DNA from: Rhodobacteraceae bacterium (ex Bugula neritina AB1)
GTDB lineage: Bacteria; Pseudomonadota; Alphaproteobacteria; Rhodobacterales; Rhodobacteraceae
Assembly (NCBI GenBank): GCA_001730095.1
Contig: MDLF01000103.1
Coordinates: forward strand, 1 to 48,807
Length of the DNA: 48,807 nucleotides
Direction: 5' to 3'
Made by a program: the position numbers and the translations under genes. Positions 22,649 through 45,218 of the stretch are shown piece by piece. Numbering within the stretch: position 1 is the first letter of the stretch; each line of letters begins with the position of its first letter. The notes under the pieces are model-generated. The model saw only the letters and a program-made list of their open reading frames with translations, had not been told where the DNA came from and ran no database searches.

Positions 22649-22661
22649 AGTCGGGGGAAAG

Positions 22662-24218: not shown

Positions 24219-24475
24219 GGCAGTGTTCTCCTTTGGCAAAGAGTTTGGCGGCGCTGTGGCGGGTTGACGTGCAGGATTGCGAAATCCATTTGCAAAAACC
24301 GACACTCCGGTTGCGGGAACCGGCCTGCGAAGGCAGAAAGCAACGGGTCTGTGATCCATGGATTAAAAATCCAGCCCATTTAGAGCCTAAAACAGGTGTT
24401 TCGCAGAGAATCCCTGTTCCCTTGCGGCCCAAGCGGCGCTTTGCGATTGCGCAAAATGCACAATGGAGCAGAAAT

Positions 24476-24697: not shown

Positions 24698-25873
24698 GTG
24701 GCAGTAGCACTCCACATCAATCAGCGTATCCGCGAGAACGCGGAAAACCTCAGTGCGGCCCTCAACAGCCACATGCTGGCCAGTTTTGCGCCAGATGCAA
24801 GGAAGGAATTGCGCCTGTTCAGCGCCGGCGAGGCGGCAGAAATGCTGGGGATTTCGCCCAGCTTCCTGCGCAAGCTGCATTTTGACGGTAAATTCCCCGA
24901 GGTGCACACCACGCCGGGCGGGCGCCGCCACTATTCCGCTGCTGACCTGCTGGCAATGCGCAAGGTTCTGGATGCATCGGCCAAAACACCCGGAACCTAT
25001 CAGCGCGGCCGCCGCGAGGGCGACAAGGTGCAGGTGCTGTCCTTCCTGAACTTCAAGGGCGGATCGGGCAAGACCACGTCGTCGATCCACACTGCACAGC
25101 GGCTGGCGCTGAAAGGTTACCGGGTTCTGGCAGTTGATATCGACCCGCAGGCCTCGCTGACGACGCTTTTCGGCTATAGGCCAGAGGTCGATTTCCTCGA
25201 AACAGGGACGATTTTTGACGCAATCCGCTATGATGACCCCCTGCCCCTGCGCGACATCATCCAAGAGACCTATTTCGCCAATCTGGATCTGGCCCCCGGC
25301 GGGCTGATCCTGCAGGAGTTTGAGCACGAGACCCCGCAGGCGCTGATCAACAATGTGCAGCCCGCGTTTTTCTCGCGCATGGCCGCCGCGCTGCAGGAGG
25401 TCGAAAAGGATTACGACGTGATCATTTTCGATTGCCCGCCGCAGCTGGGCTATCTGACCATGTCGGCACTCTGCGCCTCGACCGGCGTGATCATCACCGT
25501 TGTGCCGAATATGCTCGACATCGCCTCGATGTCGCAGTTCCTGCAGATGAGCGCGGAATTGCTGGATGTCGTGTCCAATGCCGGTGCCTCGCTGGAGTTC
25601 GACTTCCTGCGCTTCCTGATTAACCGGTATGAGCCGAACGACGGACCGCAGCAGCAGGTGGTCGCCTTCCTGCGGCAATTGTTTGGGGATGAAGTGATGG
25701 TCGCCCCGATGCTGAAATCCACAGCGATTTCCGATGCCGGACTGACCCAGCAGACGGTCTATGAGGTCGAAAGATCCATGTTTCACAGGTCAACCTATGA
25801 CCGTGCGGTGGATTCACTGAATCAAGTTAACGATGAAATAGAATCGCTCCTTCAACACGCATGGAGGCGTTGA
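24698..25873 (+). CDS. repA: Plasmid partition ATPase RepA (ParA family)
   Basis: 391 residues beginning with GTG (24698), with AGAGGG upstream. An N-terminal MerR-like DNA-binding part (FSAGEAAEMLGISPSFLRKLH, about 41-61, then GGRRHYSAADL) is followed by a ParA ATPase with deviant Walker A motif FKGGSGKTTS (119-128), switch region DIDPQASLTTLFG and DCPPQLGYLT. RepA drives partition with RepB and parS and represses its own operon. Two-base overlap region with repB shows translational coupling. The protein type defines the replicon's compatibility group, which I cannot assign by eye. Confidence 0.96.
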   Translation: MAVALHINQRIRENAENLSAALNSHMLASFAPDARKELRLFSAGEAAEMLGISPSFLRKLHFDGKFPEVHTTPGGRRHYSAADLLAMRKVLDASAKTPGTYQRGRREGDKVQVLSFLNFKGGSGKTTSSIHTAQRLALKGYRVLAVDIDPQASLTTLFGYRPEVDFLETGTIFDAIRYDDPLPLRDIIQETYFANLDLAPGGLILQEFEHETPQALINNVQPAFFSRMAAALQEVEKDYDVIIFDCPPQLGYLTMSALCASTGVIITVVPNMLDIASMSQFLQMSAELLDVVSNAGASLEFDFLRFLINRYEPNDGPQQQVVAFLRQLFGDEVMVAPMLKSTAISDAGLTQQTVYEVERSMFHRSTYDRAVDSLNQVNDEIESLLQHAWRR

Positions 25874-26847
25874 TGGCACGCAAAGGCATTCTCAGCACGG
25901 CACTCAGCAACCCGGCAGCATCCGCTGGCGGGCCGAAACCCAAAATGATGCCGCGCGGCGCGGTCGGGGCGCTGCAATCCTCGCTCAGCAAGCTGCAGGA
26001 AAGCGCAGTGCAGGAAATCGACGCGGCCCTGATCGACGACGCGGGATACGAGGACCGGCTGGGCCTCAATGGCATTGCCCATAAGCAGCTGGTGGACAGC
26101 CTGCGGACCTATGGGCAACAGGTTCCTGTGCTGCTGCGCCCGCACCCCAAGACGCCGGGGCGGTTTGAGATCGTCTATGGCCGCCGCCGCCTGATGGCAC
26201 TGCGCGAATTGGGCCTGCCGGTCAAGGCAATGATCCGGCAACTGGACGATCATGCGCTGGTGATGGCCCAGGGGCAGGAAAATACCTCGCGGCTGGATCT
26301 GAGTTTCATCGAGAAAGCGTCCTTTGCGGCGCAGCTGCAGGACGGCGGCTATGACCGGCCGACAATTGCCGCTGCGCTGTCGATTGACCTGCCGATGGTG
26401 TCACGGATGCTAAAGGTCGGCACTGCGTTTGAGCTGCCGTTTTTGCGGGCCATCGGCTCTGCCCCCGGCATTGGCCGTGACCGCTGGATGCTGCTGGTCA
26501 AACTGTTCCAGGACCCCGCCGCGCGGACCCGGGCGGTCACTCGGACAAACCGGCCCGATTTTACCACCTTTGACTCCGACGGCCGGTTCGAGGCGGTTCT
26601 GACCCATGCCCGGGGCCTAAGCCAAGCGGAGCAACCGCGCCCTGCCCCGCCAAAAACCCGCGCCCTGCCCGACAGCAACGGTGCTGAGATTGCAGGCATC
26701 AAGACAACCGCCAAGGGCATCACCCTGACGATCTCTGGCAAACACGCGCCCGGCTTTGACGCCTGGTTCGACGCGAACGCAGAAGAGATCCTGGCAGAAC
26801 TTCACGGCCGCTGGCAGCAAGACCAGCCTGAGCAGCCGGAAGAATAA
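25873..26847 (+). CDS. repB: Plasmid partition protein RepB (ParB family)
   Basis: 324 residues from ATG 25873, which overlaps the repA stop by one base and has GGAGG at 25863. The ParB/RepB domain shows VPVLLRPHPKTPGRFEIVYGRRRLMALRELG with the GRRR box, ENTSRLDLSFIEKASFA, and an HTH (YDRPTIAAALSIDLPMVSRMLKVG). It binds parS palindromes, the likely ones being at 28163-28190, 28297-28314 and 29980-29997. The C-terminal part is variable, as expected. A 179-base gap with an antisense RNA separates it from repC. Confidence 0.95.
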   Translation: MARKGILSTALSNPAASAGGPKPKMMPRGAVGALQSSLSKLQESAVQEIDAALIDDAGYEDRLGLNGIAHKQLVDSLRTYGQQVPVLLRPHPKTPGRFEIVYGRRRLMALRELGLPVKAMIRQLDDHALVMAQGQENTSRLDLSFIEKASFAAQLQDGGYDRPTIAAALSIDLPMVSRMLKVGTAFELPFLRAIGSAPGIGRDRWMLLVKLFQDPAARTRAVTRTNRPDFTTFDSDGRFEAVLTHARGLSQAEQPRPAPPKTRALPDSNGAEIAGIKTTAKGITLTISGKHAPGFDAWFDANAEEILAELHGRWQQDQPEQPEE

Positions 26848-26886
26848 GAAGAGCAGAGAAACAGGACAGGAGGCACGTAAACAGGC

Positions 26887-26941
26887 AAAAGAAAAGCCCC
26901 CCAGGACATTACATCCCAGAAGGCCGTTCTCAGATTTAGCA
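26887..26941 (-). ncRNA. Antisense counter-transcribed RNA (incA-type ctRNA) of repABC
   Basis: On the minus strand there is a -35 TTGACA (26976-26971), a 17-base spacer and a -10 CTATTC (26953-26948), giving a start near 26941. The RNA runs about 55 bases and ends in an 11-bp stem (26896-26924, GU pairs included, 7-base loop) followed by TTTTCTTTT. Location between repB and repC, size and structure match the incompatibility RNA of repABC plasmids, which lowers repC expression and sets copy number. Confidence 0.9.
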
Positions 26942-26976
26942 CCTTTGGAATAGCCCTTCAGACTCGTCACTGTCAA

Positions 26977-27000
26977 CTCCATGCCCCGCATGGAGGCGGG
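26977..27000 (+). promoter_or_regulatory. Mutually exclusive hairpins in the repC leader
   Basis: Arms CTCCATG / CATGGAG (26977-26995, loop CCCCG) compete with arms CCCGC / GCGGG (26985-27000, loop ATGGAG), since they share bases 26985-26995. In repABC plasmids, antisense RNA binding shifts the leader to a structure that stops repC expression. This is the likely switch here. Confidence 0.7.
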
Positions 27001-27026
27001 AATTCTTTGTCTTTCGTGAAAATAAC

Positions 27027-28169
27027 ATGGAACAGGCGTCCCAAATCGCATTTGGGCGGCAGGACCTGTGTGGCCAGCTGGCAGGTACTCACGACAAGTG
27101 GGACCTTCTGGCTGCGCTGACGCATGCCGCCGCGGAATTTGAACTGAGCCACCGCAGCCTTGGCGTGCTCAAAGCCCTGCTGACTTTCTTCCCAGAGCGC
27201 GCCTTGCCCGCCGAACCGGACAGCGCCATCGTGTTCCCGTCGAACCGCAAGCTGATGGAGCGGCTCAACGGAATGCCCGAAAGCACCCTGCGCCGCCATC
27301 TGGCCGCCCTCACCCGGATTGGCATTGTCAGCCGCAAGAACAGCCCAAACTGCAAACGCTACGCGCGGCGCAGCGGCGATGACACCCGTTTGGCCTTCGG
27401 TTTCGACCTCAGCCCCCTCGCCCGCCACGCCGGTCAGATCTTTGACGCCGCATTGGATGCGCGTGCCAGGGCCGAACGTCTGGCGATGCTGCGTGACCAG
27501 GTTGCCGTACTGCGGCAGGCGTTGCTGGACGCAGCCGATGAAGCTGCAGCCCCCCTGCTGGAAGCCGCCCGCAAACTGCTGCGCCGCAAGCCTTGCGAAT
27601 TGGGTCTGACTGCGATGGCAAAGACCCTGGAGGCGGAAATTGCCAGCCGGACACCTGCGGAGACCCACCAAGCTCCAGCCCTTTCCGCACGCAAAATGAG
27701 CGCCCCTGTCAGCCAAAATGAGCGGCACATACAGGATTCAGTAAAAAAAGATTCTGACTCTGAACAGGCGCAGACCAAAGCGCCCTGCCCCCAGCCCATC
27801 ACCACAGAGGCACAGGACAGCGATGCCGAGAATACCGGTGATCTGGTCAAGGTCCTGCGCGCCTGTCCCGAAGTACAGACCTATTACCCCGGAGCTTTGC
27901 GCAGCTGGCAGGATGCCGACCGTATCGCAGAAACGCTGTCCCCGATGATGGGAATAGAGATGCCGGTTCTAAGCGATGCCCGTGCCGCCATGGGCCGCAA
28001 AGACGCTGCAACGGTGGTGATCTGCATGCTAGAGAAACTTGGGTCCATCCGCAGCCCCGGCGCATATCTCCGCCGACTTGCACAAAAGGCTCGGGCAGGC
28101 CAGTTTTCCACTGCGCCAATGCTGAACGCGCTGCTGCAGACGGGAAACGGGGTGCACCATCGCGCATGA
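27027..28169 (+). CDS. repC: Replication initiator RepC
   Basis: 380 residues; RepC-type initiator with the N-terminal winged-helix region (HRSLGVLKALLTFFPERALP, then FPSNRKLMERLNGMPESTLRRHLAALTRIGIVSRKNSPN). No earlier in-frame start exists, and the ribosome site is weak, in line with tight control by the leader and ctRNA. The replicon origin of repABC plasmids lies inside repC; an AT-rich stretch at about 27705-27765 in the middle-to-late part of the gene is the probable place. The stop codon is inside a 28-bp palindrome. Confidence 0.95.
   Translation: MEQASQIAFGRQDLCGQLAGTHDKWDLLAALTHAAAEFELSHRSLGVLKALLTFFPERALPAEPDSAIVFPSNRKLMERLNGMPESTLRRHLAALTRIGIVSRKNSPNCKRYARRSGDDTRLAFGFDLSPLARHAGQIFDAALDARARAERLAMLRDQVAVLRQALLDAADEAAAPLLEAARKLLRRKPCELGLTAMAKTLEAEIASRTPAETHQAPALSARKMSAPVSQNERHIQDSVKKDSDSEQAQTKAPCPQPITTEAQDSDAENTGDLVKVLRACPEVQTYYPGALRSWQDADRIAETLSPMMGIEMPVLSDARAAMGRKDAATVVICMLEKLGSIRSPGAYLRRLAQKARAGQFSTAPMLNALLQTGNGVHHRA
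27705..27765. other. AT-rich segment in repC, candidate oriV
   Basis: A run containing CAGTAAAAAAAGATTC is clearly more AT-rich than the rest of repC. In repABC replicons the origin is within repC, so this is the most likely melting region. Position only; no other proof. Confidence 0.4.
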
Positions 28170-32575: not shown

Positions 32576-33357
32576 TCGAAGTGACCCAAGGTTCATCGCC
32601 GCTGGTGCTGGGACTGCCCCACACCGGCACCGATGTGCCGCCGGAAGTCTGGAACTGCCTCAATGAGACGGGCCGGGCGCTGGCCGACACCGACTGGCAT
32701 ATCCACGACCTGTATTCCGGCCTGGTGGAGGACATCACAACCGTCCGCACGCCGATCCACCGCTATGTGATCGACGTGAACCGCGATCCGGGTGGTATCA
32801 GTCTCTATCCAGGGCAAAACACCACCACTTTGGTGCCGCTGACGGATTTTGACGGGCTGCCGATCTGGCGCGATGGTATGGCGCCGGATGAGGCAGAGAT
32901 CACCCGCCGCCGCGAGGCCTATCACGCGCCCTATCACGCGGCGCTGATGGCAGCGCTGGAGCGGGTGAAGGCGATCCACGGCTTTGCCATCCTTTATGAC
33001 TGCCATTCGATCCGCGGCGATATCCCGTTCCTGTTTGAGGGCCGTCTGCCGGATTTCAACACCGGCACCAATCTGGGCACCACCTGCGCGCCCGAAATCG
33101 AGGCGCTGACCGTGGCCCGTTGCGCGGCGGCAGAGGGCTATTCCTCGGTCCTCAATGGCCGTTTCAAGGGCGGCTGGACCACCCGCCACTATGGCCGCCC
33201 TGTGGAAGGGCTGCACGCCATCCAGATGGAACTGGCGCAGGCCACCTACTGCCAGGAGGCGCCGCCCTGGACCTATCTGCCGGAGCGCGCGGATGTCTTG
33301 CGCGCCCATCTCACCGAAATTCTGACTGATCTGAAAAACTGGAGGCCCTCGGCATGA
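32572..33357 (+). CDS. hutG: N-formylglutamate deformylase
   Basis: 261 residues from the ATG at 32572, which overlaps the hutH stop; earlier upstream codons lie inside hutH. N-formylglutamate amidohydrolase family (PF05013): [33 protein letters not shown] and [12 protein letters not shown] contain the metal and substrate residues. It makes glutamate plus formate, the last step of the five-step histidine pathway. That route needs HutF, which is not in the window. Confidence 0.95.
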
Positions 33358-35036
33358 GCGATCCCCGCAAGAACACCCGCGATATCTTTCCGCCCACCGG
33401 TTCGGAAATCACTGCCAAATCCTGGCTGACCGAGGCACCGATGCGGATGATGATGAACAATCTGCATCCCGATGTGGCGGAAAACCCGCATGAGCTGGTG
33501 GTTTATGGCGGCATTGGCCGGGCCGCGCGCACCTGGAAGGATTTCGACCTGATCGTCGAGACCCTGAAGACCCTGGAGGAAGACCAGACCCTGATGGTGC
33601 AGTCCGGCAAGCCGGTCGGCGTGTTCCAGACCCACAAGGACGCGCCGCGGGTGCTGATCGCCAACTCCAATCTGGTGCCGCATTGGGCCAATTGGGACCA
33701 CTTCAACGAGTTGGATAAGAAGGGCCTGATGATGTACGGCCAGATGACCGCTGGTTCGTGGATTTACATCGGCACGCAGGGCATCGTGCAGGGCACCTAT
33801 GAAACCTTTGCCGAAGCCGGGCGCCAGCATTTCGGCGGCGACCTGACTGGCAAGTGGATTCTGACCGGCGGTCTGGGCGGCATGGGCGGCGCGCAGCCGC
33901 TGGCCGCTGTATTCGCCGGTGCCTGCTGTTTGGCGGTGGAGTGCAACCCCGACAGCATCGACTTCCGCCTGCGCACCAAATATCTGGACGAAAAGGCCGA
34001 GACCCTGGACGAGGCGCTGGAGATGATCGCGCGCTGGACCGCGGCGGGCGAAGCCAAATCCGTGGGCCTGCTGGGCAATGCGGCAGATGTCTTTGCCGAG
34101 CTGGTAGAGCGGGCCAAGGCGGGCGGAGCGAAACCCGATATCGTCACCGACCAGACCTCGGCGCATGATCCGGTCAATGGCTACCTGCCGCAGGGCTGGA
34201 CCATGGCGCAGTGGAAAGAGATGCGCGAAACAGACCCTAAAGCGGTGGAAACAGCCGCCCGTGCCAGTATGCGCGTGCAAGTCGCGGCGATGTGCCAGTT
34301 CCATGCGATGGGCATTCCCACCGTCGATTACGGCAACAACATCCGCCAGATGGCGCTGGAGGAAGGGCTGGAGAACGCCTTTGACTTCCCCGGTTTCGTG
34401 CCCGCCTATATCCGCCCGCTGTTCTGTCGTGGCATCGGCCCGTTTCGCTGGTGCGCCCTGTCGGGCGACCCCGAGGACATCCGCAAAACCGACGCCAAGA
34501 TGAAGGAGCTGTTCCCCGAAAACGAAGGCCTGCACCGTTGGCTGGACATGGCGCAGGAACGCATTGCCTTTCAGGGCCTGCCTGCGCGGATCTGCTGGAT
34601 CGGCCTTGGTGACCGCCACAAGGCGGGCCTCGCCTTCAACGAGATGGTCCGCAACGGTGAGCTGTCAGCGCCGGTGGTGATTGGCCGCGACCATCTGGAC
34701 AGCGGTTCGGTGGCCTCTCCGAACCGCGAGACAGAGGCGATGATGGATGGGTCGGACGCGGTGTCCGACTGGCCGCTGCTGAACGCGCTGTTGAACACCG
34801 CGTCTGGTGCGACCTGGGTGTCGCTGCATCACGGCGGCGGCGTTGGCATGGGCTTTTCCCAGCATTCCGGCGTGGTGATCTGCTGTGACGGTACCGAAGA
34901 CGCAGACCGCCGCATTGGCCGTGTGTTGTGGAACGATCCGGCCACCGGTGTCATGCGCCATGCGGATGCAGGATATGACATTGCCAAGGACTGCGCCCGC
35001 GAGCACGGGTTGAACCTGCCGGGCATCTTGGGCTGA
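33354..35036 (+). CDS. hutU: Urocanate hydratase
   Basis: 560 residues, standard length. The NAD-binding motif [13 protein letters not shown] is near residue 176; YVELAERAKAGG-like and the C-terminal [22 protein letters not shown] segment with SWCALSGD-like FRWCALSGD are the usual HutU features. It hydrates urocanate to imidazolonepropionate (second step). Its start overlaps the hutG stop (ATGA). A terminator follows at 35059. Confidence 0.97.
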
Positions 35037-35058
35037 TCTGCGGCCAGGCAAACTGTTC

Positions 35059-35085
35059 AGCCGGCTTTCGTATCGAAGGCCGGCT
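35059..35085. terminator. Convergent terminator, hut operon / GntR gene
   Basis: 12-bp stem with one G:T wobble, arms AGCCGGCTTTCG and CGAAGGCCGGCT, loop TAT, followed by ATTCTTCTTT on the plus strand. It includes the last bases of the GntR gene on the other strand. Confidence 0.8.
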
Positions 35086-35758
35086 ATTCTTCTTTCAGCT
35101 GCCGCTGTGCGGTGGCTTTGGCGTCGCTCAGGTGCTGCTCGATTGCTGTTCTGGCGGCCTTGGCATCCCCTGACACAATGGCCTCGCAAATGCCCTGCAT
35201 GTGGGCCGGACCGGATTTTTGCCGGTCTTCGCTGGACAGTGTGACCGCCCGCAACCGGCTGATGCGGCCGTTCAGACGCTGGGTGATTTCCCAGGCGACG
35301 TTATGGCCTGCACCATCAAAGATGATCCGGTAGAATTCAGTTGTGGCCCGCAGCATCGGACCGGGCACGCCTGCGGCCACGGCCTGTTGCAGATCCTGCA
35401 GCGCCTGCTGCAGTGCCGCAGCCAGCTGCGACGTGATGTTTTGCGCGCAAGCGGTGGCGGCGGCGGTCTCCAGCATCTGGCGGATGTCGTAGATCTGCCG
35501 CGCGTCCTCCCAGCTGAGCTGTGCTACGATTGGCCCCTTGCCGGGCAGGATTTCCACCAGCCCCTCGGCCTCCAGATAGCGGATGGTTTCCCGCACCACA
35601 GTGCGGCTGACGCCAAGCTGGTCGCACAGGGGCCGCTCTACCAGCCGTTCACCGGGGGCAAACTGGCCTGCGATGATCGCCGCGCGCATCCGTTCCTGCA
35701 CGATATCGCGCAGGGTCTGCGGCTGATGGTCTATTTTGCTCATGATAGGGCCGGTCAT
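35084..35758 (-). CDS. GntR-family (FCD) regulator of the DUF1185 operon
   Basis: 224 residues from the ATG at 35758, with GGAAGAA upstream; ATG 35743 is also possible. Winged HTH (LCDQLGVSRTVVRETIRYLEAEGLVEILPGKG, about 46-77) and FCD C-terminal domain with a helical bundle. It is divergent from the 35866 operon and 107 bases from it; a 12-bp palindrome sits between the -35 and -10 of that operon, which fits repression. It is not a HutC-type (UTRA) regulator, so it probably does not control hut. Confidence 0.88.
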   Translation of the reverse strand: MTGPIMSKIDHQPQTLRDIVQERMRAAIIAGQFAPGERLVERPLCDQLGVSRTVVRETIRYLEAEGLVEILPGKGPIVAQLSWEDARQIYDIRQMLETAAATACAQNITSQLAAALQQALQDLQQAVAAGVPGPMLRATTEFYRIIFDGAGHNVAWEITQRLNGRISRLRAVTLSSEDRQKSGPAHMQGICEAIVSGDAKAARTAIEQHLSDAKATAQRQLKEE

Positions 35759-35801
35759 GTTTCTTCCGATAGCAACGGGGACAGGGCGGAACAAGGCTGC
35801 A

Positions 35802-35831
35802 TTGACATATTGTATGATGGTATACCATATT
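35802..35831 (+). promoter_or_regulatory. Promoter and GntR operator of the DUF1185 operon
   Basis: -35 TTGACA (35802-35807), 18-base spacer, -10 CATATT (35826-35831). A perfect palindrome ATGGTATACCAT (35817-35828) overlaps the spacer and -10, the classic position for a repressor site. Confidence 0.65.
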
Positions 35832-35865
35832 ACAGCAACTGGAATCAGACAGGAAAGATCCGCCG

Positions 35866-36468
35866 ATGCCCGCCGAAATCCGCAAGACGCTGCTGCATGT
35901 CGAAGAGACCCTGATCGAGGGCGGCAAGGCGGCGGAAACGCCGCTCAGGATGATTGCCGCGGTGGCGGTGATCACAAACCCCTGGGCGGGGCAGGGGTTT
36001 GTCGAAGACCTGCGCCCGGCGATCCACGACTGCGCGCCGGGTCTGGGCGAGAAGCTGACAGCGATGATCCTGGAGGCCGCAGGTGGCGGCGATAAGGTTG
36101 AGGGCTATGGCAAATCCGCCATCGTGGGTGTCAATGGAGAGGTGGAGCATGCCTCTGCGCTCATCCATACGCTGCGCTTTGGCAATCACTTCCGCGAGGC
36201 GGTGGGGGCGAAATCCTATCTGGCTTTCACCAACACCCGCGGCCCGGCCAATGCGCCGCTGCAAATCCCGCTGATGGACAAGAACGACGGGGGGCGGCGC
36301 AGCCATTACCTGACCATCCAGCTGTCGGTGGCGGATGCGCCCGGCCCGGATGAAATCGTGATCGCGCTTGGCGCCTCCATCGGCGGGCGGCCGCATCACC
36401 GCATTGGCGACCGCTATCAGGACCTGAAGGAACTGGGCCATGACGCCGACAACCCTGCCGCGGTCTGA
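35866..36468 (+). CDS. DUF1185 / AA_synth family protein (PF06684)
   Basis: 200 residues. From memory it belongs to the DUF1185/AA_synth family, for which structures from Bordetella and Ruegeria pomeroyi show a chorismate-mutase-like fold; the function is unknown. Motifs seen: KTLLHVEETLIEGG at the start, NPWAGQGFVEDL, GYGKSAIVGVNGEVEHASALIHTLRFG, TNTRGPANAPLQIPLMDK and GGRPHHRIGDRYQDLKELG. It is the first gene of the operon. It overlaps the hydrolase by 29 bases, so the two are probably made together. A role in amino acid metabolism has only been suggested. Confidence 0.85.
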   Translation: MPAEIRKTLLHVEETLIEGGKAAETPLRMIAAVAVITNPWAGQGFVEDLRPAIHDCAPGLGEKLTAMILEAAGGGDKVEGYGKSAIVGVNGEVEHASALIHTLRFGNHFREAVGAKSYLAFTNTRGPANAPLQIPLMDKNDGGRRSHYLTIQLSVADAPGPDEIVIALGASIGGRPHHRIGDRYQDLKELGHDADNPAAV

Positions 36469-37255
36469 CCCCTACGGGGCCGTCACCTGCCTGCGGGCTG
36501 GGCCGGAAAACGGGCAAGGGGCGCCGGTTGTGCTGATCCACGGGGTTGGCATGCAGGCGGCGGCCTGGGGGCCGCAGATTGAGGCGTTGTGCCTGACCCA
36601 TCAGGTCATTGCGCTTGATATGCCCGGCCATGGCGGCAGCGCGCCCCTGCCGGGCTGGGCTGATCTTCCGGAATATGTGGCCTGGCTGCATGAGGTTCTG
36701 CAGGCGCTGGATCTGGGGCCTGTGTCACTGGCGGGCCATTCCATGGGCGCGCTGATTGCCGGCGGGTATGCTGTAAGCCAACCAGAGGACACGGCGCGGG
36801 TGGCGCTGTTGAACGGGGTGTTCCGGCGGTCCGCTGAAGCTCGGGCTGCAGTGGAAGCCCGTGCGGCTGAAATTCGCGCGGGCAGTTTTGATCTGGAAAC
36901 ACCGCTGGCGCGGTGGTTTGGAAAGGGCGCCGCTGACCAGCACGCGCGGGCGCAGGTGGCAAAGTGGCTGTCGGGCGTGAACCTGGAGGGCTACGCTGCC
37001 GCCTATACCGCCTTTGCCCATGGTGACAGCACCTATGCGGACGGGTTTTCGGACATCGCTTGCCCGCTGCTGGCATTGACTGGCGATGGCGATCCGAACT
37101 CAACCCCCGCGATGGCGCGGGCCATGGCAGAGACCGCGCCGCAGGGCCGGGCGGTTGTCATCGAGGGGCATCGGCATATGGTCAACCTGACCGCTCCCGC
37201 CGCGGTCAACGCCGCCCTGCGGGACTGGCTGAACACAGAAGGGGAGCCGACATGA
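36440..37255 (+). CDS. Alpha/beta hydrolase
   Basis: 271 residues. Typical fold: oxyanion HGVGMQ, nucleophile S101 in AGHSMGALIAG, acid in LTGDGDPNSTP and His in EGHRHMVNL. It hydrolyses an ester, amide or related bond. In the Rut pyrimidine pathway an alpha/beta hydrolase (RutD) follows the luciferase-like oxygenase; a similar clean-up role is likely here. Start lies inside the DUF1185 gene; stop overlaps the flavin reductase start by ATGA. Confidence 0.9.
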   Translation: MTPTTLPRSDPYGAVTCLRAGPENGQGAPVVLIHGVGMQAAAWGPQIEALCLTHQVIALDMPGHGGSAPLPGWADLPEYVAWLHEVLQALDLGPVSLAGHSMGALIAGGYAVSQPEDTARVALLNGVFRRSAEARAAVEARAAEIRAGSFDLETPLARWFGKGAADQHARAQVAKWLSGVNLEGYAAAYTAFAHGDSTYADGFSDIACPLLALTGDGDPNSTPAMARAMAETAPQGRAVVIEGHRHMVNLTAPAAVNAALRDWLNTEGEPT

Positions 37256-38178
37256 GCGACATCGATCCGCGCGCCTTGCGCAATGCATTCGGCACCTTCA
37301 TGACCGGTGTCACCGTGGTGACGGCATATGACCCGGACGGCAATCCCATCGGCTTTACCGCCAATTCCTTTACCTCGGTGTCGCTGGACCCGCCGCTGGT
37401 GCTGGTCTGTATTGCCAATTCCTCCAGCAACTACGCGGCCTTTGAACAGGCGGATGGCTTTGCCGTCAATGTTCTGGCCGAGGATCAAAAGGACGTCTCC
37501 AATACTTTCGCACGGCCCGTCGAGGACCGCTTTGCCGCCGTCAGCTGGCAGCAGGGGCCTGAGGGCAGCCCGGTGTTTGAAGGCGTTTCCGCCTGGTTTG
37601 ACTGTTCCATGCACAAACGGGTGGCGGCAGGCGACCATCTGATCCTGATCGGCAGGGTCGCGGCGTTTGAGACCTCGCCCGCGCCGGGGCTGGGCTATGC
37701 CCGTGGCGCCTATGTGACCGCAGCGGCAGAGGCCGAAGCCCTGACACAAGGCGCCAAGCTGATCGTCTCTGCCCTGATTGAGCATGAGGGCAAGGTGCTG
37801 CTCATGGGCAATGAGCAGGGCAAGCTGACGCTGCCGGAAACCCGGGTGGGCAAAGAGGGCGCCTCGGCGGCCCTGGCCCGCCTGATTGCGGACACCGGTG
37901 TCGCGGCGGAGCCGGGGTTCATCTATTCCGTTTTTGAGGACGAAGCGCGCGAACATCAGCACATCTCGTTTCTGTGCCAATCGGCCGGCGGCACACCGGC
38001 CAAGGGTGTTTTCACAGAGCTGACCCAATCCACGCTGATGGATATCGCCGATGCGGCGGTCTGTACCATGCTGGAACGGTTCGCCAGTGAGGCCCGGATG
38101 GGCAATTTCGGGGTGTATTATGGCAATCAGACCACCGGGCAGGTCCGCCCCGTGGCGACAGGGAGCAAGGGCGCATGA
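37252..38178 (+). CDS. Flavin reductase fused to a degenerate Nudix-like domain
   Basis: 308 residues, starting ATG 37252. Residues 1-165 form a HpaC/RutF-type flavin reductase domain (RNAFGTFMTGVTVVTA, NSFTSVSLDPPLVLVC, HLILIGRVAAFE), which supplies reduced flavin to an oxygenase. Residues about 168-285 look like a Nudix fold, but the box is broken: G190 and E196 are kept while the catalytic REUxEE helix reads A-R-L-I-A-D (209-214). It is followed by the luciferase-like monooxygenase in ATGA overlap, its likely partner. The second domain may bind a nucleotide or substrate without hydrolysis. Confidence 0.85.
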   Translation: MSDIDPRALRNAFGTFMTGVTVVTAYDPDGNPIGFTANSFTSVSLDPPLVLVCIANSSSNYAAFEQADGFAVNVLAEDQKDVSNTFARPVEDRFAAVSWQQGPEGSPVFEGVSAWFDCSMHKRVAAGDHLILIGRVAAFETSPAPGLGYARGAYVTAAAEAEALTQGAKLIVSALIEHEGKVLLMGNEQGKLTLPETRVGKEGASAALARLIADTGVAAEPGFIYSVFEDEAREHQHISFLCQSAGGTPAKGVFTELTQSTLMDIADAAVCTMLERFASEARMGNFGVYYGNQTTGQVRPVATGSKGA

Positions 38179-39212
38179 AATTTTCTCTCTTTGCGCATAT
38201 GGAGCGGATTTCTGAAGGCGAGGATCAGAAGCAGCTGTATGACGAATTCATCCAGCTGTGCAAAATCGCTGATGACGGTGGCATGCACGCGGTCTGGACC
38301 GGCGAACATCACGGGATGAATTTCACCATCTCGCCGAACCCGTTCCTGAATCTGGTGGATGTGGCGCGGCACACCAGGAATGTGCGGCTGGGGACGGGGA
38401 CGGTGATTGCGCCGTTCTGGCACCCGATCCGGCTGGCAGGCGAGGCGGCGATGACTGATATCATCACCGATGGCCGTCTGGATCTGGGCATTGCGCGCGG
38501 GGCTTACAGTTACGAATACGAACGCATGTTGCCTGGCATGGATGCCTGGGAGGCGGGCCAGCGCATGCGCGAACTGATCCCGGCGCTGCAGGGCCTGTGG
38601 CAGGGCGATTATGCGCAGGAAGGGGAGTTCCACTCCTTTCCGGAAACCACGTCATCGCCGAAACCGGTGCAGCAGGATGGCCCGCCGATCTGGGTGGCGG
38701 CGCGCGATCCCAACAGCCATGAATTTGCGGTTGCGCAGGGGTGCAACGTGCAGGTGACGCCGCTGTGGAAAGGCGACGCGGAAATCACCGAGCTGATGGG
38801 CAAGTTCAACGATGCCTGCGCCAAACATTCCGAGATGCCCCGGCCCAAGATCATGCTGCTGCTGCACACCTATGTGGCGGACAGCGCCGCGGATGTGAAA
38901 CGCGGGGCGCAGGAGCTGAACCGCTTTTACAATTATTTCGGCGCCTGGTTCATGAACAAGCGCGGTGTCAGCCAGGGGCTGATCGACCCTTTGAGCGACG
39001 AGGAAATCGCCGCGCATCCGTTCTATAGTCCCGAGGCGATGGAGCGCGATCTGGTGATCGGCGAACCGGCAGCGGTGATTGAGCGGCTGAGAAAATATGA
39101 GGCGCTGGGATATGATGAATATGCGTTCTGGATCGACAGCAGCATGAGTTTCGAGCGCAAGAAAGCCTCGCTTGAGCGGTTCATCGCGCACGTCATGCCG
39201 GCCTTTCAGTAG
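38175..39212 (+). CDS. Luciferase-like (LLM class) flavin monooxygenase
   Basis: 345 residues, bacterial luciferase TIM barrel. MKFSLFAHMERISEG, WTGEHHGMNFTISPNP, RLGTGTVIAPFWHPIRLAGEAAMTDIITDGRLDLGIARG and the C-terminal VIGEPAAVIERLRKYEALGYDEY are family features. It uses reduced flavin and oxygen, probably from the upstream reductase domain, to oxidise or open a substrate; the substrate is not known. Comparable in role to RutA of pyrimidine ring cleavage but different in sequence length and neighbourhood. Confidence 0.9.
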   Translation: MKFSLFAHMERISEGEDQKQLYDEFIQLCKIADDGGMHAVWTGEHHGMNFTISPNPFLNLVDVARHTRNVRLGTGTVIAPFWHPIRLAGEAAMTDIITDGRLDLGIARGAYSYEYERMLPGMDAWEAGQRMRELIPALQGLWQGDYAQEGEFHSFPETTSSPKPVQQDGPPIWVAARDPNSHEFAVAQGCNVQVTPLWKGDAEITELMGKFNDACAKHSEMPRPKIMLLLHTYVADSAADVKRGAQELNRFYNYFGAWFMNKRGVSQGLIDPLSDEEIAAHPFYSPEAMERDLVIGEPAAVIERLRKYEALGYDEYAFWIDSSMSFERKKASLERFIAHVMPAFQ

Positions 39213-39354
39213 CTGAGACCCGGTGCGCAACAGGACGCGCCGGGCCTCATTGGCCTGTGGGTGGTGAATGAGCTTGCCGCTCAAGTGGCAGTGTGCGGTC
39301 AATTGGTGAAAAATAACTTCAACCTTCGTCAAAAGTTCATCAAAGGAGCTGAAC

Positions 39355-40818
39355 ATGCAGACCTTCCAGCAGTATATCGGCGGCGCCTTTGAGGACGCAG
39401 GCGCCTCTTTCGCAAGCCTTGATCCGGCCACCGGCAAACCCTGGGCCCAGATGCCAAGCGCATCAGCTGCGGATGTGGATCGGGCCGTGCGGGCGGCGGA
39501 GGCTGCGTTTTTCTCCGCTGATTGGGCGGGGATGACCGCCACCCAGCGCGGCAAGCTGCTGATGCGGCTGGCCGATCTGGTGGCCGAAAACGCGCCCCGG
39601 CTGGCCAGGCTGGAAACCCGCGACACCGGCAAGATCATCCGCGAGACTTCAGCCCAGATTGCCTATGTGGCGGAGTATTACCGCTATTACGCAGGGCTGG
39701 CGGATAAGATCGAGGGCGCGCATCTGCCAATTGATAAACCGGATATGGAGGTCTGGCTGCGGCGCGAGCCGGTGGGGGTGGTTGCTGCCATCGTGCCGTG
39801 GAATTCGCAGCTGTTTCTGTCCGCTGTGAAAATCGGCCCGGCGCTGGCGGCAGGCTGCACGGTGGTTCTGAAAGCCTCCGAGGAAGGCCCGGCGCCGATG
39901 CTGGAATTTGCCCGGATCTTTGATCAGGCGGGCTTTCCGCCTGGGGTGCTGAACGTGATCACCGGCGGACCGGAGGCAGGGGCGGCGCTGACCAGCCATG
40001 CATCGGTGGCCCATGTGGCGTTTACCGGCGGGCCGGAGACTGCGCGCCATATCGTGAGGAACTCGGCGGAGAACCTTGCCTCTACCTCGTTGGAGCTGGG
40101 CGGCAAGTCACCGTTCATCGTGTTTGATGACGCCGATCTGGAAAGCGCTGTGAACGCGCAGGTCTCTGGCATTTTTGCCGCCACCGGGCAAAGTTGCGTC
40201 GCGGGATCGCGGCTGGTGATCCAGAAGGGCATCAAGGACGCCTTCCTGGCCCGGCTGAAGGAAAAGGCCGAAGCGGTGGTGATCGGTGCGCCGGATGACA
40301 TGGCGACTGAAGTCGGACCGCTGTGTACCCTGAAACAGCGGGATCACGCGCTGCGGCTGATCGAGGCGTCGGTTGCGGCTGGGGCAGAACTGGTCACGGG
40401 CGGCACTGCGGCGGACGGGGAGGGGTTCTATTTTCCGCCAACGGTGCTGGATTGCTCAGCCGCGCCAACTGCGCCCTGCCTGTCGACCGAATTCTTCGGC
40501 CCTGTCCTGTCGGTTGTCAGCTTTGAGACCGAGGCGGAGGCTTTGGAGATTGCCAACACCACCGCATTCGGCCTTGCCTCGGGTGTGTTCACCCGGAACC
40601 TCACCTGCGCGCACCGGATGATCCGGGGTATCCGGGCTGGGATCGTCTGGGTCAATACCTACCGCGCGGTCAGCCCGATTGCGCCCTTTGGCGGCCATGG
40701 GCTGTCCGGTCATGGGCGCGAGGGCGGTCTGCAGGCGGCACTGGATTACACCAAGGTCAAAGCCGTCTGGCTGCGCACCAGTGACGAGGCGATCCCCGAT
40801 CCCTTTGTGATGCGCTGA
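39355..40818 (+). CDS. NAD(P)+-dependent aldehyde dehydrogenase
   Basis: 487 residues. N150 (PWNSQ in place of PWNFP), E247 (LELGGKS) and C281 (GQSCVAGSR) form the catalytic set. Own AGGAG site; 142 bases after the monooxygenase, so it may have a promoter of its own or be read through. It would oxidise the aldehyde or semialdehyde product of the operon. Followed by a hairpin/TATTTT repeat. The Ser in place of Phe next to the catalytic Asn is a small deviation from the common motif. Confidence 0.9.
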   Translation: MQTFQQYIGGAFEDAGASFASLDPATGKPWAQMPSASAADVDRAVRAAEAAFFSADWAGMTATQRGKLLMRLADLVAENAPRLARLETRDTGKIIRETSAQIAYVAEYYRYYAGLADKIEGAHLPIDKPDMEVWLRREPVGVVAAIVPWNSQLFLSAVKIGPALAAGCTVVLKASEEGPAPMLEFARIFDQAGFPPGVLNVITGGPEAGAALTSHASVAHVAFTGGPETARHIVRNSAENLASTSLELGGKSPFIVFDDADLESAVNAQVSGIFAATGQSCVAGSRLVIQKGIKDAFLARLKEKAEAVVIGAPDDMATEVGPLCTLKQRDHALRLIEASVAAGAELVTGGTAADGEGFYFPPTVLDCSAAPTAPCLSTEFFGPVLSVVSFETEAEALEIANTTAFGLASGVFTRNLTCAHRMIRGIRAGIVWVNTYRAVSPIAPFGGHGLSGHGREGGLQAALDYTKVKAVWLRTSDEAIPDPFVMR

Positions 40819-40835
40819 ATTGCCAGCGGCGGGAA

Positions 40836-40895
40836 CGAGGGGGCTGCCTGCCCCCTCGCGCTCCCCCGGGGATATTTTGAGCCAGAAGAAGATGG
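40836..40895. repeat. Roseobacter-type GC-hairpin / TATTTT repeat, copy 2
   Basis: Arms CGAGGGGGC / GCCCCCTCG (40836-40858) followed by CTCCCCCGGGGATATTTTGA and an AGAAGAAGATGG tail, matching the copy at 19937-19991 in layout. It follows the aldehyde dehydrogenase stop. Confidence 0.7.
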
Positions 40896-40958
40896 GGCGG
40901 CCTGTTAGTGGCGGATGCGCTATCCGGTGGCGCAGACCCGGCCGGGGAGCGCGTGCAG

Positions 40959-41305
40959 ATGCTGATCAGATCCCGTGATGTGATCGTTCTGGGCGGTACG
41001 GGATTTCTCGGCCGTCGGGTGGTGCGGTGTCTGCAGAGGCAGGGCTGGGGTGTTCTGGACGGTCCCCGCACCCGGCGGAAGGTCTATGAACTGGGCGGGC
41101 CGGATGTGTTTGCCTACCGCGACATCCTGCGGCGGCTGGCGGCGCGTTCCGGTCGGCATCGGCTGCTGCTACCGGTGCCATTTTGGATGTGGCGGCGGCG
41201 CAGGTTGCGCTGATGCGGCATGACAATACCGCAGCCCCGAAGCTTCCAGGGTTTGCTGATTTGGCGATCACGCCGCAGTCTGCTGTTGCCATGGGGCTGG
41301 TCTAG
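40959..41305 (+). pseudogene. NDUFA9-like NAD(P)-binding protein, decayed
   Basis: The N-terminal NAD-binding motif DVIVLGGTGFLGRRVVRCLQRQGW is followed abruptly by DGPRTRRKVYELGGPDVFAYRDILRRLA, a segment that normally lies about 150 residues further on, so a large middle part is deleted. A frameshift near 41187 then moves the C-terminal piece (LDVAAAQVALMRHDN, then PGFADLAITPQSAV) to another frame, ending at the TAG at 41303. The full gene belongs to the complex I NDUFA9-like family of Rhodobacterales. This copy is not functional. Confidence 0.7.
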
Positions 41306-41332
41306 GGGAGAGAGCTGCGGAAACAGAGCAGT

Positions 41333-41352
41333 CCGGGCCAAAGCTGGCCCGG
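41333..41352. terminator. Hairpin, possible weak terminator
   Basis: Arms CCGGGCC / GGCCCGG with loop AAAGCT between the pseudogene and the RidA gene. No strong T-run on either side. Confidence 0.35.
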
Positions 41353-41372
41353 CGCAATTGATGGGTCGCGGA

Positions 41373-41717
41373 TCAGTCGCAGGCCGCGGTGACGATGATT
41401 TCCACCTTCAGGATCTCGCGCGCCAGCTTGGCTTCGCCGCAGGCGCGGGCCGGGGCGTGGCCTTCGGGAACCCAGGCGTTCCAAACCTCGTTCAGTTCCG
41501 CGAAATAGGACATGTCAGACAGCCAGATCACGGTCTGCAGCAGGCGGGTCTTGTCGCTGCCGGCTTCGGCCAGCAGGGCGTCGACCTTGGCCAGGATCTC
41601 GCGGGTCTGTTCGGCGGCGGTGTCTGCCTCGGACACCTGGCCGCTGAGATAGACAGTGCCGTTGTGCTTGACGATCTTGCTGGAGCGGGCGGTGGTGCCG
41701 ATGCGGGTGATGGTCAT
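41373..41717 (-). CDS. RidA-family enamine/imine deaminase (YjgF/RutC-like)
   Basis: 114 residues. The family arginine is R91 in PARACGEAKL, with E106 in LKVEIIVTA. RidA proteins hydrolyse reactive enamines and imines made by PLP or flavin enzymes; RutC of the Rut pathway is one. A monocistronic gene here, on the opposite strand to the monooxygenase operon 2 kb away. It could detoxify imines from any of the oxidases in the window. Confidence 0.92.
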   Translation of the reverse strand: MTITRIGTTARSSKIVKHNGTVYLSGQVSEADTAAEQTREILAKVDALLAEAGSDKTRLLQTVIWLSDMSYFAELNEVWNAWVPEGHAPARACGEAKLAREILKVEIIVTAACD

Positions 41718-41794
41718 GGATCAAGTGCCTTTTCTGTGATGAGCTGCCGCGGTCATAACGGCCGACGCAGCCGGGGGAAAGGGCCAGGGGCTGT

Positions 41795-42679
41795 TCAGAG
41801 GGAACCGGGCAGGGCGATGCCCAGCTTGTCCGGGTTGCGCAGGATGTAAATCCAGGCGATCCGGCCGGTATGGTCCGGCGCCAAGGTGGTGATCGAGTCG
41901 AGCTGCCCGTGCCTGTAGCGCAGGAAAGCCGCTTTGCCGTTGGCAACGGCGGTGCGCAGGGTCCAGCCTGGTTCCGTCTTGGCCCGCTGGTGCAGCGCCT
42001 GGAACACCTGCATGATCTCTGCTCCGCCGCAGAGTGGGCGACGGGCGGCGCGCCGGTTTGCACCGCCGTCAGACAGCGCCACGCTGTCCGGCGTCAGCAT
42101 GGCCAGGGCGGTATCGTAGTTTTCTGCCATCACCGCGCCGAAGAACCGCTGGCACAGGGCGGCGACCTCTTCGGGCGGGGCGTCAAAGCGGGGGCCGCTG
42201 TCCTGCAGCTTTTTCTGCGCCCGGCTGACCAGCTGGCGGCAGGCGGCCTGGGTGGTGCCCAGCACTTTGGCAATCTCGCCATAGCTGGCGTCGAAGGCTT
42301 CGCGCAGGATGAAAGCAGCGCGTTCGCGTTCGTTCAGCCGCTCCATGGCCCACAAAAGCGCCAGCTCGCATTCCTGTGCCAGTTCGAAATGCGGCACAGG
42401 TGCCTGTTCAGCCGCGTGCAGCAGCGGCTCTGGCAGCCAGGGGCCCACATAGGTTTCACGCCGGGTCCGGGCCAGCCGCAGCGTGTCGATGGCGATATTT
42501 GTGGCAACCCGGCGCAGCCAGGCGGTTGGGTTGGTGATCTGATCGCGGTCCGCTGCGGCCCATTTCAGCCAGGTGTCCTGCACCGCGTCCTCGGCGCCGG
42601 ATACTTCGCCCAGCATCCGGTAGCAGATCGACACCAGTTTCGGTCGCTCCGCTTCAAACACATCTGTCAGCATGTTCAT
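41795..42679 (-). CDS. ECF sigma factor, SigJ type (with SnoaL-like C-terminal domain)
   Basis: 294 residues. Sigma region 2 (FEAERPKLVSICYRMLGEVSGAEDAVQDTWLKW, about 9-41) and region 4 (about 110-170, LNERERAAFILREAFDASYGEIAKVLGTTQAACRQLVSRAQKKL) are clear. The C-terminal domain (about 185-294) is SnoaL/NTF2-like, as in SigJ/ECF41 factors, where it regulates activity. Its start overlaps the CxxC-protein stop (ATGA), so the set is an operon. ECF41 sigma genes are often next to carboxymuconolactone decarboxylase-like genes, as here. Confidence 0.93.
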   Translation of the reverse strand: MNMLTDVFEAERPKLVSICYRMLGEVSGAEDAVQDTWLKWAAADRDQITNPTAWLRRVATNIAIDTLRLARTRRETYVGPWLPEPLLHAAEQAPVPHFELAQECELALLWAMERLNERERAAFILREAFDASYGEIAKVLGTTQAACRQLVSRAQKKLQDSGPRFDAPPEEVAALCQRFFGAVMAENYDTALAMLTPDSVALSDGGANRRAARRPLCGGAEIMQVFQALHQRAKTEPGWTLRTAVANGKAAFLRYRHGQLDSITTLAPDHTGRIAWIYILRNPDKLGIALPGSL

Positions 42680-43221
42680 GTCCGCAGCTGCACCTTGATC
42701 GTATCATGTCCGACGTTGACCTGGCTGCAAGTCTTGGCAAAGCCAAGGCCCCGTTTCAAGACCGGATAGATCCGGCCGCTGGAGGCTGCGCAGGCGGCTG
42801 CGGTGACCGCAACTTCGCCAAAGCGCAGGGCGATCTCCTGGCGCAGGTCGTCCAGATCCGCTGCATCGGCAATTGCGGCTTGGGCAAAACGAAAGCCCAG
42901 CCCGACGTTGCCAGCGCTGGCGGCCTGGCCTTGCAGACACAGCGTCAGCATGTCGGCAGGCACCCCGGCCTCCAGCGCCATATTGGTGACCAGCTGGGCG
43001 CAGGGGCCGCAGTCACCGTCCAGGGTAGAGCCGAGCTGCGCCCCCCAGCGGACCTCCAGCGCGGCTTTGGGGCCGTTGTACTGGGTGAACAGTGGCAGGG
43101 CGATGGCCAGCCGCAGCCCCGCCGAGGCTGAGGTTTTGGTAACATGCTGCATATAGGCGGCATCATAGCTGTAGCGGGTGGCAAAGCTTTGGATGGCAAG
43201 ATTGAGAAGGAATTTGATCAT
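42676..43221 (-). CDS. Carboxymuconolactone-decarboxylase-like protein with CGPC motif
   Basis: 181 residues, all-helical. The DCGPCAQLVTN motif gives a C71-x-x-C74 pair as in AhpD-like/CMD peroxidase-type proteins, which act in redox or hydroperoxide chemistry; a decarboxylase role is unlikely. Partner of the ECF41-type sigma factor and part of the same operon (3 bases after the membrane gene, overlap with sigma). Probably a target or sensor of that sigma system. Confidence 0.8.
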   Translation of the reverse strand: MIKFLLNLAIQSFATRYSYDAAYMQHVTKTSASAGLRLAIALPLFTQYNGPKAALEVRWGAQLGSTLDGDCGPCAQLVTNMALEAGVPADMLTLCLQGQAASAGNVGLGFRFAQAAIADAADLDDLRQEIALRFGEVAVTAAACAASSGRIYPVLKRGLGFAKTCSQVNVGHDTIKVQLRT

Positions 43222-43224
43222 CGC

Positions 43225-43626
43225 TCAGGCCTTGTGCGGAGTCAGGGGAAGCGCCCGAGGGGGCAGGGTGAAGGCGGCCCAGAGCACGGCGGCGGCAGGC
43301 AGCTGGATGCCGGTAAAGTTGGTCAACGCGATCAGATCTGCGGGAAAGCCGCGGTGGCTCCAGATCCAGATGTGGAACAGCGCGTGAAACACCAGCCAGG
43401 CAGAGCCGCAGACAGCGGCGCTGCGGTCGGTCTTTAGCGCCGCCCAGGCCAGTGCCAGCCCGCTGGACAGGAAGGCCAGCGCCACATCGCGGGCGAAGTG
43501 AATGTTCAGCGGGCCGGTCATCTGCACACCCGGCAGGGTGGCATACCAGTGCGGCGTGGCCGCCCACATATAGGCGGCGTTGATCAGGGCAAATCCGCCC
43601 GCCGCCGCCAAAATGATCCTTTGCAT
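43225..43626 (-). CDS. Small four-helix membrane protein
   Basis: 133 residues with about four hydrophobic helices (2-20, 46-64, 72-92, 100-122) and a GGAGG site just before the start. HALFHIWIWSHRG has clustered histidines that could bind metal or haem. I do not recognise the family with certainty (DoxX-like or DUF4345-like are options). First gene of the operon with the CxxC protein and the ECF sigma factor. Confidence 0.75.
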   Translation of the reverse strand: MQRIILAAAGGFALINAAYMWAATPHWYATLPGVQMTGPLNIHFARDVALAFLSSGLALAWAALKTDRSAAVCGSAWLVFHALFHIWIWSHRGFPADLIALTNFTGIQLPAAAVLWAAFTLPPRALPLTPHKA

Positions 43627-43709
43627 TGATACCTCCAGAACGCAGGGTCTGAAGGGAAGACGGATCAGGACGCGTGTTTGTGACAGGATGTGCAGCGGTG
43701 GGCTGAAAT

Positions 43710-45218
43710 TTATTGCGCGGCGTGCTGCCGGGCCTGGTCCGGGTATAGCTCTGCCATTGAAACCGAGCGGCCGTTGTCCTGCACGATCCGCGCGTGGCAG
43801 CGCTGCAGCTGCCGCGGATCCGTCACGCCACAGCTATGGGCAAGGGTGGTGACCTCCTTGATCATGTTCTTGGCATAAGAGGCGACACGCACGGCTTTGT
43901 CGGTGGGGTCCAGGCCGAACTGCAGCTTGGGGTTATGGGTGGTGATGCCGGTGGGGCAGGTGTTCTTGTTGCATTGCAGCGCCTGAATGCAGCCGAGCGC
44001 AAACATGAAACCGCGGGCGGAAACCACAAAGTCCGCCCCGGCGCAAAAGGCCCAGGCGACTTCTGACGGGTTGACCAGCTTGCCGCTGGCGCAAACCTTG
44101 ATCCGGTCCCGCAGCCCATGGCCAGAAAGGACATCCACCGCTTTGGGCAGGCTTTCGCGCAGCGGCATGCCCATGTTGTCGATCAGGCTCATCGGGGCGG
44201 CGCCGGTGCCGCCGTCGGCGCTGTCGATGGTGATGAAATCTGGGGCGCTTTCCACACCGCGCGACAAGATCTCCCTGCACAGCCCGTCCAGGAAGCCATG
44301 GGCGCCGAGGACCGCTTTGAAACCCACGGGCTTGCCAGTGACTTCGCGCACATAGGCGATCATGTCCAACAGCTCACCCGCGTTGGAGGCCTCTGGGTGA
44401 CGGTTGGGGCTGATGGCGTCCTCGCCCGGGGTCAACCCGCGTATGGCGGCGATTTCCTCTGTCACCTTGGCGCCGGGCAGGATGCCGCCCTTGCCGGGTT
44501 TGGCGCCCTGGCTGAGCTTTAGTTCGAACATGCGGACGGTTTCATGGGCGGCGGCAGCGCGCAGTTTCGTCTCGTCAAAGCCGCCCTCGGGTTTGCGGAC
44601 GCCGAATTTGCCGGTGCCGATCTGGAACACGACGTCGCAGCCGCCCTCAAGGTGGTAGGGAGACAGCCCGCCTTCGCCGGTGTTCAGCCAGATTCCGGCC
44701 TTGGCGGCGCCATGTGACAGGGCCCGCACCGCGGGTACGGAAATGGCGCCAAAGCTCATGCCGGAGATGTTGAAAATCGACGCTGTGGTGTAGGGCGTGC
44801 GGGCATAGGGGCCGATGGTGACAGCGGCGGGCGGGATGGTGCCCTGTTCGAGATCCGGAAAGGGCGCGTTGGCGAAATAGACGGTTCCTGCCGGACGCAG
44901 ATCACGGGTAGAGCCGAAGGCAACGGTGGAATCCACGTTTTTGGCGGCCCGGTAGATCCAGGAGCGTTCTGCCCGGTTGAACGGCATTTCCTCGCGGTCG
45001 AGCGCAAAGAAATACTGTCGGAAGAATTCGCCCAGATGTTCAAACAGATAGCGGAAGCGGGCGATCACCGGGTAATTGCGGCGTAGGGTGCTGGCGGTCT
45101 GGGTCTTATCGCTGATGTAGACCGCGATCAGCCACAGAAGACCCGCACCGATGGCAAAGATGAAGGCGTAAGACAGGATTTCGAGCAGCGCCAGGACGGT
45201 GCTGGATATCTGGGTCAT
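43710..45218 (-). CDS. FMN-binding glutamate-synthase-family protein
   Basis: 502 residues. Two N-terminal hydrophobic segments (about 8-30) are followed by the FMN-binding TIM barrel of glutamate synthase (KPGKGGILPGAKVTEEIA, ITIDSADGGTGAAPMSLIDNMGMP) and the iron-sulfur cysteines in GCIQALQCNKNTCPTG. The amidotransferase domain of true glutamate synthase is absent, so it is a stand-alone oxidoreductase, probably membrane-anchored. Its reaction is not known; glutamate or another 2-oxoacid/amine exchange is one idea. Upstream GAGGAG supports the start. Confidence 0.9.
   Translation of the reverse strand: MTQISSTVLALLEILSYAFIFAIGAGLLWLIAVYISDKTQTASTLRRNYPVIARFRYLFEHLGEFFRQYFFALDREEMPFNRAERSWIYRAAKNVDSTVAFGSTRDLRPAGTVYFANAPFPDLEQGTIPPAAVTIGPYARTPYTTASIFNISGMSFGAISVPAVRALSHGAAKAGIWLNTGEGGLSPYHLEGGCDVVFQIGTGKFGVRKPEGGFDETKLRAAAAHETVRMFELKLSQGAKPGKGGILPGAKVTEEIAAIRGLTPGEDAISPNRHPEASNAGELLDMIAYVREVTGKPVGFKAVLGAHGFLDGLCREILSRGVESAPDFITIDSADGGTGAAPMSLIDNMGMPLRESLPKAVDVLSGHGLRDRIKVCASGKLVNPSEVAWAFCAGADFVVSARGFMFALGCIQALQCNKNTCPTGITTHNPKLQFGLDPTDKAVRVASYAKNMIKEVTTLAHSCGVTDPRQLQRCHARIVQDNGRSVSMAELYPDQARQHAAQ

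Follow-up and report, generated by a model that had tools for sequence, protein, structure and literature searches.

Trigonelline (N-methylnicotinate) is a nitrogen compound of plants that also occurs in the sea, and the sequence of reactions by which it is degraded, including the roles of TgnC and TgnD, was reportedly set out by Perchat et al. in 2018. On plasmid NZ_CP094644.1 of Acinetobacter sp. PK01, tgnA and tgnB are annotated as the reductase and oxygenase components of a ‘flavin-dependent trigonelline monooxygenase’, and tgnC as a ‘(Z)-2-((N-methylformamido)methylene)-5-hydroxybutyrolactone dehydrogenase’; these names are database annotation, and the comparisons made here are to the PK01 proteins, not to the characterised ones of A. 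baylyi ADP1. The PK01 hydrolase is annotated merely as an alpha/beta hydrolase, and we take both it and its counterpart described below to be TgnD. Ahead of the PK01 tgn cluster lie genes with the annotation of sarcosine oxidase subunits and one for a glycine-cleavage-T domain protein, a group read here as methylglutamate-dehydrogenase-like. Heal and colleagues present TgnA/TgnB as the ring-opening step (Heal et al., 2021; PMC8269262).

The window analysed here, a stretch of 48,807 nucleotides from Rhodobacteraceae bacterium (ex Bugula neritina AB1), contains a similar set of genes. All five ORFs that the preliminary description had read as an operon at 35866-40818 on the + strand were confirmed at that span, and Pfam matches agree with their assignment: a TgnF-like DUF1185 (AA_synth) protein (35866-36468; PF06684, 235 bits), a TgnD-like alpha/beta hydrolase with the putative triad S101-D218-H246 (36440-37255; Abhydrolase_6, 80 bits), a TgnA-like flavin reductase with a C-terminal extension (37252-38178; Flavin_Reduct, 149 bits, residues 14-156), a TgnB-like luciferase-like monooxygenase (38175-39212; Bac_luciferase, PF00296, 182.5 bits) and a TgnC-like aldehyde dehydrogenase (39355-40818; Aldedh, PF00171, 534 bits). 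A sixth gene, for a GntR/FCD-family regulator, is divergent on the - strand (35084-35758, its start ATG at 35758 or 35743 being an uncertain choice made by eye); scanned as 35084-35779, its product matches the Pfam GntR and FCD models at 61 and 84 bits.

The first four structural genes overlap (36440 lies before 36468, 37252 before 37255 and 38175 before 38178). Between the monooxygenase and aldehyde dehydrogenase genes lies a 142-bp gap (39213-39354), a spacer that is single copy in the genome; the same gap spans 0-67 bp in 85/85 relatives, with gene starts extrapolated from alignments. A RidA-family gene (41373-41717, -) is found directly downstream of the operon on the opposite strand, and L. 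thetidis (L031) likewise has a RidA-family gene after its operon. Inspection of the ORFs of 33000-44000 by eye showed no transporter gene, and no succinate-semialdehyde dehydrogenase gene lies beside the operon in the window. Across the 10 relatives aligned, the hydrolase residues S101, D218 and H246 do not vary. Residues 4-303 of the flavin reductase align with PDB 3rh7 (309.7 bits), so its C-terminal extension of ~145 amino acids (window 37744-38178, residues ~165-308) is common to both proteins; a Pfam scan of this extension gave no match, and by eye it is Nudix-like in appearance.

All six genes are present in the same order and orientation on the PK01 plasmid, with identities of 49% for GntR, 69% for DUF1185, 57% for the hydrolase, 49% for TgnA, 73% for TgnB and 69% for TgnC; the aldehyde dehydrogenase is only 35% identical to the PK01 succinate-semialdehyde dehydrogenase. 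Several features of a tgn operon are found in the window: a TgnB-type monooxygenase and adjacent TgnA-type reductase encoded by overlapping genes, a TgnC-type aldehyde dehydrogenase, a TgnD-type hydrolase with its catalytic triad, and the DUF1185 protein TgnF. Because the operon is orthologous to and colinear with the annotated tgn cluster, trigonelline is its very probable substrate, and we consider it likely that this is the trigonelline degradation operon, tgn, of a Leisingera-type bacterium. The oxidative ring opening proposed in the preliminary description survives in outline, in that ring opening of an N-heterocycle is the probable task of a two-component flavin monooxygenase, after which the aldehyde dehydrogenase and hydrolase would act. 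Its claim of a substrate not previously known gives way to trigonelline, and the outcome that it had itself named as contrary to its reading, a known substrate degraded by a known route, is the one to which orthology points, as the operon is very probably an orthologue of an already described pathway.

The same six genes occur in order in 81 of 85 loci (80 from genome contigs and 5 from plasmids), including Sinorhizobium meliloti pSymA, so this gene order is not due to chance. Across all 85 loci, a protein related to the succinate-semialdehyde dehydrogenase of PK01 (49% identity or more) is encoded in the available flanks in 22 cases, or in 20 by best-hit count. Nine of these 22 belong to the 39 loci whose monooxygenase shares 78% identity or more with that of the window, which fits trigonelline and not homarine, and the window monooxygenase keeps 166 of the 169 columns that are invariant in 13 dehydrogenase-carrying loci outside its own group. 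A Roseobacter-type monooxygenase subgroup, unlike its relatives, has this dehydrogenase in 0 of 12 available flanks (L073, L075-L079, L081, L082, L086, L087, L092 and L094), so the substrate could vary within the clade. In two Paraburkholderia loci (L108, L113), a second pair of reductase-like (43-45%) and hydrolase-like (42%) genes lies in opposite orientation beside the tgn-like operon, together with an ABC binding protein 67-68% identical to that of S. meliloti. In a wider survey, 21 of 289 genomes of the class were found to encode a monooxygenase that matches with an E value of 1e-40 or lower, with 11 places at least 56% identical to the window protein and the next at 41%. A colinear reductase and DUF1185 gene adjoin five of these 11 places, three have DUF1185 without an adjacent reductase (G117, G222, G259), and DUF1185 is absent nearby in the other three (G288, G226, G258).

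In a midpoint-rooted tree of 57 monooxygenases, the window protein joins those of Leisingera (support 100/99), which nest in a group of 21 rows, most of them from Roseobacter (99/94). The sister of this group contains the annotated TgnB of PK01 and proteins from Burkholderiaceae, Xanthomonas and Paracoccaceae (joint support 97/88), and the rhizobial enzymes branch outside both groups with weaker support (92/76), so that annotated TgnB, the window monooxygenase and the proteins of rhizobia fall in one clade. Should trigonelline be the substrate of the rhizobial and Acinetobacter enzymes, parsimony would make it that of the window enzyme as well; a switch of substrate on the Roseobacter branch may be compatible with the monooxygenase tree taken alone. 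The window monooxygenase is 90.7-93.6% identical to those of 17 Leisingera plasmid records, and the GntR protein of the operon is 83-87% identical to those of nine Leisingera loci. The window also carries repABC plasmid genes at 24698-28169, whose products exceed the cut-offs of the TIGR03453 (RepA, 573.8 bits), TIGR03454 (RepB, 286.1 bits) and NF040974 (RepC, 290.6 bits) models. The genome as a whole (4.67 Mb, 106 contigs) has one DUF1185 gene, that of the operon.

Elsewhere in the window, the stretch 8019-24359 encodes two enolase-superfamily proteins (with a cis-3-hydroxyproline dehydratase model below its cut-off), a Rieske oxygenase, a GbdR-like regulator (also below cut-off) and an MTTB-family methyltransferase. 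These genes on the same plasmid possibly serve betaine catabolism, and the set is reminiscent of pSym, on which trigonelline and stachydrine genes lie together according to the title of one paper.

Upstream of the DUF1185 gene, a consensus scan predicts a sigma-70-like promoter, TTGACA-18-CATATT, at 35802-35831 on the + strand (one found against a shuffle mean of 0.3), in which the -35 hexamer at 35802-35807 and the -10-like hexamer downstream are consensus matches only. Between the two hexamers lies a perfect 12-bp palindrome, ATGGTATACCAT (35817-35828), a predicted GntR operator. Its core, GTATAC, lies in the 60 bp that precede the DUF1185 gene of 75 of 84 relatives, compared with 43 of 8500 random 60-bp windows drawn from the same loci; it is present in Acinetobacter and Paraburkholderia, and S. 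meliloti has a one-base variant. There is therefore good evidence that the palindrome is a conserved operator. Since the regulator gene and the palindrome occur paired, we infer that the GntR protein binds this site, from which it would repress the operon. A repressor whose operator covers the promoter had been proposed earlier; the divergent GntR gene and the palindrome in the promoter are both in place, and binding of one to the other is presumed from their pairing.

In the proposed route, the reductase (TgnA) would supply reduced FMN with which the monooxygenase (TgnB) would open the pyridinium ring between C5 and C6. TgnC, the aldehyde dehydrogenase, would then oxidise the resulting hydroxybutyrolactone/aldehyde to (N-methylformamido)methylene-succinate, and the hydrolase (TgnD) would split this product into formate, methylamine, CO2 and succinate semialdehyde. 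The DUF1185 protein (TgnF) would assist late in the pathway, whose completion would fall to the products of genes elsewhere in the genome, a succinate-semialdehyde dehydrogenase and enzymes of methylamine assimilation. Every one of these reactions is assigned to the window enzymes by analogy of sequence. For the last steps, which consume succinate semialdehyde and methylamine, the genome holds candidates: a putative succinate-semialdehyde dehydrogenase on another contig (candidate TgnE; best relative in this genome, 56%), and a protein that scores 651 bits with the TIGR03105 glutamine-synthetase-III model (cut-off 469.6, passed in 1 of 14 control genomes) and is presumably a gamma-glutamylmethylamide synthetase. 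The contig of the latter also encodes a protein 36% identical to the glycine-cleavage-T-type protein of PK01. As for the step assigned to TgnD, the hydrolase matches 209 PDB chains, among them alpha-(N-acetylaminomethylene)succinate hydrolase, 3kxp (E 4.5e-9); it scores better with esterases, an enol-lactonase and RutD (3v48, E 5.9e-12), and because so many other hydrolases outscore 3kxp, this likeness is only suggestive.

The main rival to trigonelline is homarine (N-methylpicolinate), or another N-methylpyridinium betaine, degraded by the same chemistry, a reading that we regard as improbable. It would accommodate the one aldehyde dehydrogenase of the operon, since C5-C6 cleavage of homarine plus one aldehyde oxidation should by chemical reasoning give N-methyl-N-formyl dehydroglutamate, for which a single such enzyme would suffice; in addition, a published, conserved homarine pathway is reported to involve N-methylglutamate dehydrogenase, and R. 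pomeroyi is reported in another study to draw homarine down quickly (PMC12817926). However, Heal et al. (2021) judge the action of TgnA/TgnB on homarine unlikely on steric grounds, and describe growth of R. pomeroyi on homarine as less effective than on trigonelline (PMC8269262). The latter comparison is weakened by a correction, which states that the homarine standard was contaminated with picolinic acid (PMC10134881). Other genomes contain diverged operons of DUF1185, hydrolase, monooxygenase (56-57%) and aldehyde dehydrogenase genes without an adjacent flavin reductase gene (L131, L133, L134), which may serve a related substrate, homarine for instance, and lend this reading some support, but the window monooxygenase is closer to annotated TgnB than to these. 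The linked succinate-semialdehyde dehydrogenase counted above is also expected for trigonelline and not for homarine.

Less credible still is a Rut-like pathway for uracil, or for some other amide or heterocycle that has yet to be described, in which DUF1185 would be the key enzyme: flavin reductase, luciferase-like monooxygenase and alpha/beta hydrolase are common to both systems and the hydrolase matches the solved RutD structure, but the match to the RutF model gives 98.6 bits where the cut-off is 254.75 and that to the RutD model 57.9 bits where it is 238.5, the RutA model is absent among 25 of the 26 matches listed, and the tgn-annotated cluster provides a closer and colinear match for every one of the six genes. 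As all six proteins stay below the cut-off of every NCBIfam model in those 25 of 26 matches, the low Rut scores are not decisive alone; the Rut operon also differs from that of the window by RutB and RutE, neither of which is encoded among the six genes of 35084-40818, and on these grounds membership of the Rut pathway was rejected. The preliminary description had likewise seen an operon Rut-like in architecture yet distinct from Rut, without RutB and RutE, and this view is upheld.

With trigonelline as the probable substrate, the DUF1185 protein acquires a context. It exceeds the PF06684 profile cut-off and shares the fold of a family with two solved structures, for which no settled reaction was found in the literature. 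In one study, TgnF, the DUF1185 homologue of the trigonelline pathway, is reported to stimulate TgnE-dependent succinate semialdehyde oxidation, and none of the attempts made there with the authors' own DUF1185 protein, HcdD, is said to have reproduced such stimulation (PMC7913881). The earlier portrayal of DUF1185 as an enzyme with no experimental record is thus too strong. Among the 289 sampled genomes, 56 contain DUF1185, at 84 places, and, by their coordinates, 8 of these 84 have a monooxygenase from this clade no more than ~5 kb away. That DUF1185 lies mostly away from this monooxygenase comes close to what the preliminary description had said would count against it.

Of 20 further DUF1185 regions, one (L194) has a different luciferase-like monooxygenase, and ten neighbouring proteins were scanned from four of them (L188, L179, L193 and L194). 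The neighbours are hydantoinase A/B and a molybdenum-cofactor dehydrogenase, plus two ORFs without a match, in L188; a Rieske oxygenase and a periplasmic binding protein in L179; and an MFS transporter in L193. The L194 variant operon (aldehyde dehydrogenase 61%, hydrolase 40%, DUF1185 59%, monooxygenase 25% and a 204-aa reductase 35%) perhaps serves another heterocycle. DUF1185 genes also form adjacent pairs, with less than 100 bp between their matches, in 12 of the 56 genomes (G287, G071, G165, G037, G194, G277, G263, G231, G210, G163, G148 and G104), which suggests a two-subunit form; none of the pairs in these 12 genomes is near this monooxygenase clade.

In sum, a likely substrate can be assigned to an operon that looked orphan, and DUF1185 gains a testable place in a mapped pathway, which narrows the remaining question to its role there. 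The analysis further suggests that trigonelline use is carried on Leisingera-type plasmids, which bears on marine bacteria that feed on betaines. Relative to the window, the PK01 cluster continues with a cytosine-permease-type transporter and a succinate-semialdehyde dehydrogenase, neither of which follows the operon in the window, and the window is set apart by the gap before its aldehyde dehydrogenase gene. Sinorhizobium meliloti pSymA (CP140958.1) has the same five structural genes in order, at 50-75% identity, in an operon that adjoins noeA/noeB; its GntR gene is oriented with the operon, unlike the divergent one of the window, and a NIPSNAP protein, an ABC transporter and a succinate-semialdehyde dehydrogenase follow. 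Rhizobium etli p42c has these five structural genes as well, with an ABC transporter and succinate-semialdehyde dehydrogenase downstream. At the level of a single enzyme, the 3kxp hydrolase shares the alpha/beta fold of the TgnD-like protein, and both would hydrolyse an N-acyl-aminomethylene succinate to succinate semialdehyde, with acetyl and ammonia in the 3kxp reaction in place of formyl and methylamine.
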